Of a stretch of 64,000 bases of DNA, positions 161-61,058 are shown in pieces; the first letter of the stretch is position 1, and every line of letters begins with the position of its first letter. Position numbers and translations under genes: made by a program. The DNA comes from Solirubrobacteraceae bacterium (GTDB lineage: Bacteria; Actinomycetota; Thermoleophilia; Solirubrobacterales; Solirubrobacteraceae). Location: assembly GCA_030690545.1 (NCBI GenBank), contig JAUYGN010000038.1:1-64000 (forward strand). Direction: 5' to 3'. The notes under the pieces are model-generated. The model had not been told where the DNA came from, did no database searches, and worked only from the letters and a program-made list of their open reading frames with translations.

Positions 161-635
161 GGCCGCGCAGCTCGTCGAGCAGGCCGCGGCATGCCGCGTC
201 GACGAGGTCGAGCACATGGCCGAAGCCGTCCTCGCCGCCGTAGTACGGATCGGGCACGTCGAGATCACCGCCACCGGCAGCTCGATCGAACTCCCGCAGC
301 AGCCGCACCTTCGCGGCGGCCTCGTCGTCCGGGGCGAGGCGGCGCAGGTCGCGCGCGTTCGCGCCGTCGAGCGCGACGAGCAGGTCGAACGCGTCGAAGT
401 CGGCGCGGCGCACCTTGCGCGCTGCGCCCGCGAGGACGATGCCGCGCGCCGCGGCAGCGGCGACCGAGCGCGGATCGGGCGACGCACCGACGTGCCAGCC
501 GCCGGTGCCGGCGCTGTCGATCTCGATCCGGTCGCTCAGTCCGGCGTCGGCGACGAGGCCGCGCATGACGCCCTCGGCCGTCGGCGAGCGGCAGATGTTT
601 CCCAGGCAGACGAAGAGGACGCGCGCGCAAGCCAT
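144..635 (-). CDS. low molecular weight protein-tyrosine-phosphatase-like phosphatase
   Basis: 163 aa, the usual length. The P-loop C-X5-R reads CLGNICRS with nucleophile Cys10 and Arg16; the general-acid loop near the C-terminus reads DPYYGG. The enzyme hydrolyses phosphate monoesters, either protein phosphotyrosine or, in homologues next to ketosamine kinases, ketosamine phosphates; the adjoining kinase gene makes the second role worth considering. I chose the ATG at 635 because the family starts a few residues before the first beta strand; an in-frame ATG at 680 would add 15 Arg-rich residues. A TACCCT box 9 nt before this ATG supports the choice. Confidence 0.9.
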   Translation of the reverse strand: MACARVLFVCLGNICRSPTAEGVMRGLVADAGLSDRIEIDSAGTGGWHVGASPDPRSVAAAAARGIVLAGAARKVRRADFDAFDLLVALDGANARDLRRLAPDDEAAAKVRLLREFDRAAGGGDLDVPDPYYGGEDGFGHVLDLVDAACRGLLDELRGRVGAA

Positions 636-58508: not shown

Positions 58509-59750
58509 TCAGGTGCGGCTACCCGGCTGCGTGCTCCGAAAACGCTCGCGCAGCTCGCCGACGTCGCCGCCCGAGCGCAGCAGCTCGCGGGCGAGCTCGA
58601 GATCGTCGGGCCGGCCGACGGCCAGCGCGGCCGCGAGCCGCCCCTCGTGCGCGTAGAGGACGCTGAACGCGCCGGTCGCCGGGTCGCCGCCGACGATCTC
58701 CTCGTCCCAGCGCAGCGCCGGGCCGACGTACTCGAGCGTCGCCCAGTCGGCCAGGTCGGACCAGAAGTACGGGATCTCCGCGTACGGCTCGGTCGCGCCG
58801 AGCATCGCGCGCGCCGCGTGCCGGCCCTGCGCGGCGGCGACCTCCTCGTGCTCGATCCGCAGGCGGCGACCGTGCACGACGCTGTCGTACTCGCAGACGT
58901 CGCCGGCGGCAAAGACGGCCTCGGCGCTCGTGCGCAGCGTCCGGTCGCACAGCACGCCGCCGCTCTCGCCGAGCGCGAGCTCGGCCTTGCGGGCGAGCAT
59001 GACGTCCGGGTTCGCCCCCACCCCCACGACGACGAGGTCGGCGTCGACGCGGCGCCCGTCGGCGCAGACGACAGCCGTGACGGGCGCGTCGTCCTCGCCG
59101 TCGCCGTCGAAGCGCGCCACGTCGGCCTGCGCGACGATCTCGATGCCGTGCTCGGTCAGCAGGTCATGCACGAAGCGGCCGACGACCGGGCCGAAGCCGC
59201 GCTCAAGCGGCAGCGCCTCCTGCATGACGAGCGTCACCTGCCTGCCGAGCAGCGACAGCGAGGCCGCGACCTCCGTGGCGATGTACGAGCCGCCGACGAC
59301 GGCGACCCGCTCGACCCCGTCGAGCGCGCCGCGCAGCTTGTCGGCGTTGCCGAGCGCGCGCAGGTAGTGGATCCCGTCGCGCATGCCGCCGTCGACCTGC
59401 AGCCGGCGGATCCCGGCCCCGGTCGCCAGCAGCGCCTGGCCGAAGCCGACCTGCTCGCGGCCGAGCTTCGCGGTCCGCGCGGCGGCGTCGAGCGCCATCA
59501 CCGGGGTGCGCGTGCGCAGCTGCACGTCGTGCTCGGCGTACCAGTCCTCGGAGTGGATCAGCGTCGACGCGCGAGCCTCGCTGCCCTGCAGGTAGCCCTT
59601 CGTCAGCGGCGGGCGATGGTATGGCGCGTCCATCTCGCGGGTCACGAGCAGGATCGAGCCGTCGTAGCCCTGCTCGCGCAGTTCGGCGGCGGCGTGCGCC
59701 GAGGCGATACCGCCGCCGATCAGCAGAATGTCTGTCGTCGCGTCGGTCAT
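58509..59750 (-). CDS. NAD(P)/FAD-dependent oxidoreductase (ferredoxin reductase-like)
   Basis: 413 aa. GGGIASAHAAAELR for FAD, RPPLTKGYLQG, VAVVGGSYIATEVAASL for NAD(P)H and FAAGDVCEYDS for the flavin, as in rhodocoxin/putidaredoxin reductases; a C-terminal reductase domain (IPYFWSDLADW) follows. Passes electrons from NAD(P)H to a ferredoxin; none is encoded nearby. TAGGAT 6 nt before the ATG. Confidence 0.92.
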   Translation of the reverse strand: MTDATTDILLIGGGIASAHAAAELREQGYDGSILLVTREMDAPYHRPPLTKGYLQGSEARASTLIHSEDWYAEHDVQLRTRTPVMALDAAARTAKLGREQVGFGQALLATGAGIRRLQVDGGMRDGIHYLRALGNADKLRGALDGVERVAVVGGSYIATEVAASLSLLGRQVTLVMQEALPLERGFGPVVGRFVHDLLTEHGIEIVAQADVARFDGDGEDDAPVTAVVCADGRRVDADLVVVGVGANPDVMLARKAELALGESGGVLCDRTLRTSAEAVFAAGDVCEYDSVVHGRRLRIEHEEVAAAQGRHAARAMLGATEPYAEIPYFWSDLADWATLEYVGPALRWDEEIVGGDPATGAFSVLYAHEGRLAAALAVGRPDDLELARELLRSGGDVGELRERFRSTQPGSRT

Positions 59751-59884: not shown

Positions 59885-59890
59885 TAGCGT
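59885..59890 (+). promoter_or_regulatory. -10 box of tRNA-like gene
   Basis: TAGCGT, 9 nt before the first base of the RNA; no clear -35. Confidence 0.5.
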
Positions 59891-59899
59891 TCCGGGAGC

Positions 59900-59991
59900 G
59901 GAGCGTGAAGCGGCGAGGTCGTCGCGAGCACCCGAGACGTGCGAGACCGGAGGTCGCCCCTCCGGTTGGGGTTCGAGTCCCCCGCGCTCCG
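59900..59991 (+). tRNA. unusual 8/4-type tRNA-like RNA with GAG anticodon position
   Basis: 92 nt. Acceptor stem of 8 bp (59900-59907 with 59983-59990, one G-U), T stem of 4 bp around loop TTCGAGT (59972-59978), D stem of 6 bp with a 4-nt AGGT loop (59910-59925), variable arm of 8 bp with a 5-nt loop (59946-59966), discriminator G. The anticodon stem pairs 4 bp (59928-59931 with 59939-59942) and its loop CCGAGAC puts GAG at the decoding position, after C rather than the usual U33. The shape recalls selenocysteine tRNA, but UCA is absent; the G discriminator and long arm suggest serine charging. CCA is not encoded. Confidence 0.7.
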
Positions 59992-60003
59992 CCGTCAAGC
60001 TGG

Positions 60004-60033
60004 GGGCGGCTGCCGATCCGGATCGGCCCGCCC
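60004..60033 (+). terminator. terminator hairpin of tRNA-like gene
   Basis: GGGCGG / CCGCCC outer stem and GCCGAT / ATCGGC inner stem with a two-base bulge, loop CCGG, 12 bp in all, 13 nt after the RNA. Confidence 0.6.
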
Positions 60034-60106
60034 GCCGGCTTGGTACCTTTCGAGCTGCTTCTCGGGTGCTTCACGCTCAACGTGGGGTCGCTCCCCGCCC
60101 GCCTTC

Positions 60107-60129
60107 ACGGCCCGCCCTCGGCGGGCCGT
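60107..60129. terminator. hairpin downstream of era
   Basis: Perfect 10-bp stem ACGGCCCGCC / GGCGGGCCGT with loop CTC, 39 nt beyond the era stop. Confidence 0.55.
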
Positions 60130-60167: not shown

Positions 60168-61058
60168 CTACTCGATCCCGAGCCGGTCGAGCAGGCCGTC
60201 GTCGCCGCGCCAGCCGCGCCGCACGCGGACGGCGAGATCGAGGTGAACGTGGGCGCCGAGCTGCGCCTCCAGCTCGCGTCGCGCGGCCGTGCCGATCGCC
60301 TTGATCATCTTGCCCTGCGCGCCGATCAGGATGCCCTTCTGCGACTCGGCCTCGACCCACGCCCGCGCCTGCACGCGGACAAGGTCCTCGCGCGAGGCGT
60401 CGATCTCCTCGACGACGACCTCGACGGCGTGCGGGACCTCCTGGAACGTGCGGCGCAGGATCTGCTCGCGGATCAGCTCGGCGAACAGGACGGCGTCGGT
60501 CTGGTCGGACGGATCGTCGACGTCGAACAGGAAGGGGCTTTCGGGCAGCAGCCCGACGAGATGCTCGACGAGCGCCTCGACGCCGGTCCCCTTGCGCGCC
60601 GACAGCGGGAAGATCTCGTCCGAGACTCCGAGCTGCGAGGCGGCCTGCAGCGCCGCGAGCGTGTGAGCCTCGTCGAGGCGGTCGATCTTGTTGACGACGA
60701 TCGCGATCGGCACGTCGGCGCGGGCGAGCGCTCCCGCGATGAACCGGTCGCCCGGGCCGACGCCCTGCTCGCCGTTGAGCAGCAGGACGGCGACGTCGGC
60801 CTCGCCCATCTCGCGCTCGACGCGCGACTGCATGCGCTGGGTCAGCGCGTCGCGCGGACGCTGCACGCCGGGCAGGTCGACGAGCACGAGTTGCGCGTCG
60901 CCGCGCATCGCGATCCCGCGGATCGCGCGGCGCGTCGTCTGCGGCTTGTCGGAGACGATCGCGACCTTCTGCCCGACGATCGCGTTGACGAGCGTCGACT
61001 TGCCGACGTTCGGGCGCCCGGCCAGCGCGACGAAGCCGGCGCGCGTCGGCGCGCTCAC
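60168..61058 (-). CDS. era: GTPase Era
   Basis: 296 aa. GRPNVGKSTLVNA, DLPGVQRPRD, NKIDRLDE and a C-terminal KH domain with GQKG-like IGAQGKMIKAIG. Binds 16S rRNA in 30S assembly. The start overlaps the ybeY stop by 4 nt. Confidence 0.96.
   Translation of the reverse strand: MSAPTRAGFVALAGRPNVGKSTLVNAIVGQKVAIVSDKPQTTRRAIRGIAMRGDAQLVLVDLPGVQRPRDALTQRMQSRVEREMGEADVAVLLLNGEQGVGPGDRFIAGALARADVPIAIVVNKIDRLDEAHTLAALQAASQLGVSDEIFPLSARKGTGVEALVEHLVGLLPESPFLFDVDDPSDQTDAVLFAELIREQILRRTFQEVPHAVEVVVEEIDASREDLVRVQARAWVEAESQKGILIGAQGKMIKAIGTAARRELEAQLGAHVHLDLAVRVRRGWRGDDGLLDRLGIE

Follow-up and report, generated by a model that had tools for sequence, protein, structure and literature searches.

Allo-tRNAs are serine-type tRNAs that carry a 'wrong' anticodon, and their natural role is an open question, a puzzling one since such a tRNA should be harmful. 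The locus described here comes from a Solirubrobacteraceae bacterium (GCA_030690545.1, contig JAUYGN010000038.1, positions 1-64,000; this whole stretch of 64,000 nucleotides (nt) is called the window, and its coordinates are used throughout). An RNA at 59900-59991 folds as a tRNA with an 8/4 acceptor/T branch and is followed, on the same strand, by a trailer that holds the reverse complement of its own anticodon arm. We propose, at about even chances on the evidence of sequence, that the locus encodes in one transcript a serine-type 8/4 allo-tRNA-like RNA and a cognate anti-tRNA trailer, by which the RNA would silence itself.

According to the available text of two articles (PMC7609411, PMC7590224), E. 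coli cells charge allo-tRNAs that have 8/4 and 9/3 branches, G73 and a long variable (V) arm with serine and use them to read codons not assigned to serine. These allo-tRNAs (Mukai et al. 2017, as described there) share with the RNA of the window the 8/4 branch, the long D stem and the long V arm, and likewise G73 with serine identity, a non-serine anticodon and soil bacteria as hosts. The difference lies in the host group, which in the accessible part of the review comprises Clostridia, Proteobacteria and Acidobacteria (PMC7609411), whereas the family described here belongs to Thermoleophilia (Actinomycetota). A cognate trailer, made of a complement of the anticodon stem-loop (anti-ASL), a codon-bearing hairpin and a hairpin matched to the V-arm loop, is unmentioned in the available text of the same two articles, a scope that does not include the founding paper, and additional literature searches brought none to light; within that scope we know of no precedent for it, and priority is not established.

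Four other systems are related in part. Bacterial selenocysteine tRNA (tRNA-Sec) has in common with the family the 6-base-pair (bp) D stem with its 4-nt loop, the long V arm, the 8-bp acceptor and G73, but its T stem has 5 bp and its anticodon is UCA, whereas the family has a 4-bp T stem, no UCA and no evident tie to the Sec trait, and a separate selC is present in the host. The 8/4 tRNA-Ser genes of phages have the same acceptor branch, G73 and GGAGGGTGA...CGCCCTCCG ends, but mostly carry serine anticodons and, unlike the family, lack a downstream complement. In the type VIII toxin-antitoxin system CreTA, CreA guides a CRISPR effector that represses CreT, as stated in the accessible part of PMC8501985. 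Both there and here an RNA possibly disturbing translation would be checked by a cognate RNA, but here the antagonist would be part of that RNA's own transcript, and there is no sign of a protein. Finally, T-box riboswitches are also structured RNAs that present a codon to an anticodon and contact a second tRNA site, and the family differs from them by its long complement, the lack of a controlled downstream gene and the lack of an Rfam match.

The tRNA-like RNA and its family

The features on which the proposal is built are the following; the stems are those of the minimum free energy (MFE) fold.

59900..59991, + strand: 8/4 tRNA-like RNA (MFE fold, covariation in 29 relatives, tRNA-Sec model score)
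59900-59907/59983-59990, + strand: acceptor stem, 8 bp
59910-59915/59920-59925, + strand: D stem, 6 bp, with the 4-nt loop AGGU
59928-59931/59939-59942, + strand: anticodon stem, 4 bp, with the loop CCGAGAC
59945-59953/59959-59967, + strand: V arm, 9 bp
59968-59971/59979-59982, + strand: T stem, 4 bp
59991, + strand: G73, the discriminator (sequence)
59934..59936, + strand: anticodon position GAG, with C33 before and A37 after (sequence, family tally)
59926..59937, + strand: anticodon-arm segment pairing with the trailer, 12-bp core (complement search)
60056..60071, + strand: anti-ASL, reverse complement of the anticodon arm, core 60060-60071 (complement search)

The MFE fold of 59900-59991 is an 8/4 cloverleaf (z -3.45, 0/200 shuffles), and both the fold and the covariation of the relatives split the 12-bp acceptor/T branch as 8+4. 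It reproduces exactly the acceptor, T and D stems and the 4-nt D loop drawn in an initial annotation of this DNA, whereas the V arm, given there as 8 bp, has 9; GAG at the anticodon position, C33 and the G discriminator had been read correctly. The better fit to 8/4 than to a 7/5 cloverleaf also holds. ARAGORN called no tRNA at 59900-59991, and the covariance-model scan that the annotation had suggested left the RNA unmatched by the Rfam tRNA model (RF00005), even at E 10 in the whole-genome scan. The Rfam tRNA-Sec model (RF01852) gave 39.7 bits, under its gathering score of 47 bits, which two relatives pass (L082 and L105). The earlier description of a SelC-like body of the allo-tRNA kind without UCA was right. 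The window RNA is neither tRNA-Sec nor a canonical tRNA, and by every testable feature the tRNA-like half is an 8/4 allo-tRNA. A true tRNA-Sec or decayed selC was rejected on the lack of UCA, the 8/4 branch and the separate selC, and a canonical tRNA-Leu on the ARAGORN and Rfam tRNA blanks and on the genome's own tRNA-Leu(GAG) (L044). Since the host has a genuine tRNA-Sec (UCA) at C37:28846-28935, separate from the window RNA, and an ordinary tRNA set complete as far as seen, tRNA-Leu(GAG) and four tRNA-Ser included, the window RNA is an extra and not a missing member of the set.

Relatives were collected with a covariance model built from the single sequence, for the taxonomic family, and then with one of eight sequences, for the class. 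The former found clear relatives within the family at 56-80 bits; same-genus genomes gave no DNA match to the tRNA-like part. Of the 32 copies in the resulting set, one lies on a viral contig and the other 31 come from Thermoleophilia bacteria. Compensatory changes, which the initial annotation had recommended to look for, were found for every stem: over 29 sequences 95% of the cells are paired and double changes occur in 23 of the 31 pairs (0/500 shuffles), as against 40-53% paired in slid-alignment controls. G73 is present in 30/32 copies and GGA..UCC at the acceptor end in 29/32; G73 together with the long V arm points to the serine-type identity proposed before. The anticodons are GAU (10 copies), GAG (7), GAC (7), GCC (6) and GAA (2). 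G34 and A37 occur in all 32 copies; 27 have U33 and 5 have C33.

The trailer and its cognate pairings

The decisive feature lies beyond the coordinates of the initial annotation, which missed it: a complement of the anticodon arm accompanied by matched hairpins. In the window, 59926-59937 and 60060-60071 make a core duplex, GAGCACCCGAGA / TCTCGGGTGCTT. A reverse complement of the copy's own anticodon arm, 11-20 nt long, lies downstream on the same strand in 28 of the 32 copies, and among the first 28 loci 24 have 11-18 contiguous pairs, matched by 0-2 of 200 flank shuffles. A complement score of at least 30 is reached in 25/31 downstream flanks, in 0/30 upstream flanks and in 0/30 segments at +400..600. 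As for controls, the complement was found in 0/7 genuine tRNA-Sec loci, a score of at least 30 in 0/35 canonical tRNAs of the same genome, and in 1/53 viral 8/4 tRNA genes, the exception being a member of the family (L111). A complement as a general trait of 8/4 tRNA genes is ruled out by the phage and other 8/4 genes that lack it.

The complement follows the anticodon. All three anticodon bases are paired with it in 28/28 copies. When it is placed by Watson-Crick pairs only, G-U exceeds A-C cells by 41:16 (p 6e-4), and by 16:3 inside the seeds (p 0.002); an earlier count of 60:5 was due to a scoring bias and has been replaced by 41:16. At the orthologous site after a metW-like gene, L082 has GAA and the complement GGTTTCAGCTGGT, L083 GAG and CGTTTCTCAGGCGGTT; at the site that follows an RNase H-like gene, GAU is the anticodon of both L085 and L091, and L089, with the same flanking DNA, has GAC. 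Anticodon, hairpin codon and complement thus vary in concert at orthologous loci, and on this comparison the kept feature is the RNA pairing, as the anticodon changes and the trailer follows. It is scarcely credible that the RNA is an ordinary allo-tRNA or a decayed selC copy with a complement arisen by chance. The tRNA-Sec score and the 8/4, long-D-stem body resembling known allo-tRNAs would suit such an origin, but shuffles, controls and covariation contradict it, the stems are held by compensatory changes, and a high-scoring tRNA-Sec was not found in several carriers. For the family, a chance complement is refuted by the permutation and control tests.

The trailer and its upstream region contain further elements.

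59885..59890, + strand: -10-like hexamer TAGCGT, 9 nt before the 5' end (sequence)
59996..60042, + strand: hairpin-1, an internal trailer hairpin without a T run (fold)
60068..60078, + strand: anti-acceptor box GCTTCACGCTC, perfect complement of 59901-59911 (acceptor 5' strand and linker)
60082..60098, + strand: post-complement hairpin GGGG-TCGCT-CCCC (fold; in relatives its loop complements the V-arm loop)
60107..60129, + strand: 10-bp GC-rich hairpin ACGGCCCGCC-CTC-GGCGGGCCGT, without a T run, probable terminator of the unit (fold)

Where a first hairpin region separates the tRNA from the complement, as it does in 23 copies, the hairpin-1 loop shows the cognate codon followed by a purine in 18, compared with 7.0 for permuted anticodons (0/5000); the purine would meet tRNA position 33. 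The codon is present in relatives and missing from hairpin-1 of the window, and those members of the class Thermoleophilia that have short spacers lack hairpin-1. The loop of the post-complement hairpin matches the V-arm loop of its own copy with a mean of 7.8, as against 5.7 for mismatched copies (0/20000 permutations), with pairs such as AGUCA and UGACU or AACCA and UGGUU. A looser test, in which stem letters were counted too, had given no significance (936/5000), and the loop-only definition was adopted afterwards; the V-loop contact is therefore a less certain feature than the complement of the anticodon arm. The anti-acceptor box, 11 nt long, shares its first 4 nt with the end of the anti-ASL.

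A codon with a purine in a loop recalls the specifier of a T-box, and the trailer might be a sensor of that kind, which would read its own tRNA-like RNA at the anticodon and at one more loop and control termination. In favour of it, another hairpin reads a second tRNA loop and a probable terminator then follows. This is nonetheless very improbable: RF00230 gave no match in the loci of six relatives at E up to 5, the pairing extends over 11-20 bp and not 3-4, the second contact is the V-arm loop and not the CCA end, and there is no consistent downstream gene, the next gene in the window being convergent. A T-box riboswitch proper was ruled out for want of an Rfam match, and no Rfam family covers the trailer.

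The tRNA-like RNA, the complement and the hairpins apparently share one transcription unit. A -10 box had been claimed before: the hexamer TAGCGT is in place, and TAnnnT-like boxes occur at about equal distance upstream of the relatives, but no strict sigma-70 promoter pair was found upstream of the window copy, for which reason we infer the promoter. The 12-bp terminator formerly placed 13 nt downstream proved to be hairpin-1, and the unit does not end there but continues to about 60130. Relatives have a similar end hairpin, several with T-rich tails.

Folding of the whole RNA and a proposed mechanism

The trailer duplex is predicted to be much more stable than the anticodon hairpin (mean energies -27.9 vs -5.9 kcal/mol). 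In nested folds of full-length RNAs, the duplex is present and the acceptor stem gone in 26/27 copies, with a mean gain of 9.2 kcal/mol over tRNA and trailer folded apart; canonical tRNAs with their own flanks gain 2.7 kcal/mol on average. It would be equally possible that the trailer captures the anticodon arm alone, in a pseudoknot, and that the tRNA body keeps its fold.

In the model, the locus would encode one non-coding transcript of about 230-245 nt, an allo-tRNA-like RNA with an anti-tRNA trailer. The tRNA-like part would be transcribed and folded first. G73, the GGA..UCC acceptor end and the long V arm are features of the type recognized by seryl-tRNA synthetase (SerRS), and the 12-bp acceptor/T branch would suit EF-Tu. 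Because this serine-type body carries a non-serine G34 anticodon, the RNA, if charged, would deliver the wrong amino acid at an NNC codon. Next, the trailer would pair with the whole anticodon arm, while the hairpin beside the complement could kiss the V-arm loop and, in the window copy, the second box could pair with the acceptor 5' strand. On this basis the RNA is predicted to be bistable: with the trailer retained, the tRNA would be unfolded or masked, and with the trailer cut off, absent or degraded, an active missense tRNA would result. The earlier suggestion that the RNA may be a missense-type tRNA or a regulatory RNA is shared here as a possibility.

Several points weigh against this model. 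The window copy has C33, unusual for a decoding tRNA, and its gene does not encode CCA, which is encoded in 11/32 copies. Two copies 12 kb apart in one genome (L105 and L106, G351 C2) have good tRNA-like bodies without a long complement. The permutation tests treat the copies without correction for relatedness. Across the family the anti-acceptor box is not significant (3978/20000 permutations), so that, strong as it is in the window, it is suggestive as a family feature. By consensus the promoter and the terminator of the window copy are weak. Nested folding programs cannot score the pseudoknotted state with an intact tRNA body, and the acceptor stem is lost in 17/35 predictions for canonical tRNAs with their own flanks. 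The predicted loss of the acceptor therefore proves little, and only the energy gain and the covariation discriminate.

Some of these points, C33 in the window and four relatives and a CCA that is often not encoded, would be expected of a structural or regulatory non-coding RNA with a tRNA-like fold, never charged or decoded, whose duplex is a matter of architecture. The anticodon stems are weak, the full-length fold prefers the long-range duplex, and some published allo-tRNA-like RNAs are not chargeable by E. coli enzymes, according to the accessible part of PMC7609411. We consider this explanation unlikely. The rules of the tRNA loop are kept (G34 and A37 in 32/32, U33 in 27/32), G73 is retained in 30/32 together with a GTTCGA-type T loop, and the anticodons vary among real codons while the hairpin-1 loop shows the matching one; since a mere structural helix needs none of this, the kept tRNA rules and the codon match weigh against it.

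If the self-silencing allo-tRNA holds, a co-evolving anti-tRNA trailer in the same gene would be a concrete answer to how an allo-tRNA can be carried safely, and other allo-tRNA loci would merit re-reading past their 3' ends. If working in cells, it would also be a compact device to mask and release a suppressor tRNA.

Distribution and genomic surroundings

Presence of the family in Thermoleophilia is sporadic. It was found in 14/232 genomes of the order and in 8/103 genomes of a different family in the class. Of 396 genomes sampled from the phylum only 2 have it, both within the taxonomic family of the window organism. Named carriers include Solirubrobacterales bacterium 67-14, Conexibacter sp. 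CPCC 205762 and Conexibacter arvalis DSM 23288, a cultured strain whose copy has GAU (L066/L123). In six same-genus genomes the era locus lacks an RNA of this kind. Several diverged copies, most with their own matching trailer, coexist in each of five genomes (G029, G264, G309, G351, G396), and several copies are kept vertically at one site within a genus. The copies L105 and L106 are nearly identical; most of their differences fall in the anticodon arm (GAC, GAG) and in the hairpin-1 codon that matches it. Two identical copies at two contig ends of one genome (L135 and L136, G191) look like a single locus split by the assembly, not a repeat. The copy L111 is borne by a viral contig with terminase and portal genes; BLAST of the whole unit against phage genomes gave no match. 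The four copies without a long complement are L105, L106, L078, with U as discriminator, and L081, with an acceptor mismatch and, downstream of 1589, tandem repeats (ggtcccgccggaatcgagcccgctccc) at the expected site of the complement. In L067b, conversely, the tRNA acceptor is destroyed and the complement is intact.

The locus may also be read as an RNA-only mobile module, partly phage-borne, in which a single transcript would yield a serine-charged missense tRNA and its own matched antagonist, an idea that is possible but on the whole doubtful. If it held, the proteome would be mis-decoded at one chosen codon upon failure of the antagonist, the choice of codon could evolve while tRNA and anti-tRNA stay matched, and the module would represent a new RNA-only kind of toxin-antitoxin or a switchable mistranslation. 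A type VIII-like addiction system would go further, with a stable serine-charged missense tRNA as toxin and a less stable trailer as antitoxin, so that loss of the locus would free the tRNA and harm the cell. The sporadic presence, the era sites of six relatives without a related RNA, the multiple diverged copies with matching trailers, the phage copy beside terminase and portal genes and the surviving complement of L067b are in its favour, and the anticodons would read NNC codons, probably frequent in such GC-rich genomes. The cognate pairing expected of an RNA antitoxin is predicted and covaries. We nevertheless hold addiction to be rather unlikely. Toxicity of the tRNA-like part is hypothetical, a common transcript would supply both parts in equal amounts so that differential stability must be assumed, the long complement is missing beside the tRNA bodies of L105 and L106, and vertical retention at one site in a genus is also expected of a housekeeping regulator.

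A tRNA-Sec scoring at least 60 bits was found in 9/22 carriers and not in others such as G351, G309 and G029 (some genomes being incomplete); a link to selenocysteine is unlikely. In the host, open reading frames resembling by eye selD, selA and a 511-amino-acid selB surround the tRNA-Sec (L049, C37:20000-39000), with glycine/betaine-reductase-type genes, also named by eye, beside them. A remnant resembling a tRNA 3' half, GCGGGTTCGATTCCCGC, lies on the minus strand at C62:30102-30190 of the host (L048); it scores 25.6 bits with the tRNA-Sec model and is not a tRNA. The canonical tRNA-Val(GAC) of the host (L010, 421-493, minus strand) has the anticodon loop TCGACAA, with C33 like the window RNA. 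Genes of the 8/4 type are common on IMG/VR phage contigs, mostly serine (L109-L117, L137-L139, L141-L191), and are useful as negative controls; others, outside Thermoleophilia and without a downstream complement, were seen in Candidatus Kuenenbacteria (L130 and L132; GAU) and in a Chloroflexota metagenome-assembled genome (L131). Canonical tRNA genes adjoin two elements of the family (L079, 1351-1424; L085, 1234-1306).

The neighbours in the window are as follows.

60168..61058, - strand: era, convergent (window gene list, comparison with relatives)
58509..59750, - strand: FAD-dependent ferredoxin-reductase-like gene, divergent (named by eye)

Across the family the neighbours include era and, by eye, groEL, proB, bioA, a clp gene, metW and rnhA. 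As these are diverse housekeeping genes, many of them convergent, without a common partner, they argue against a regulated downstream gene. In several relatives the ferredoxin-reductase-like gene comes directly after era.
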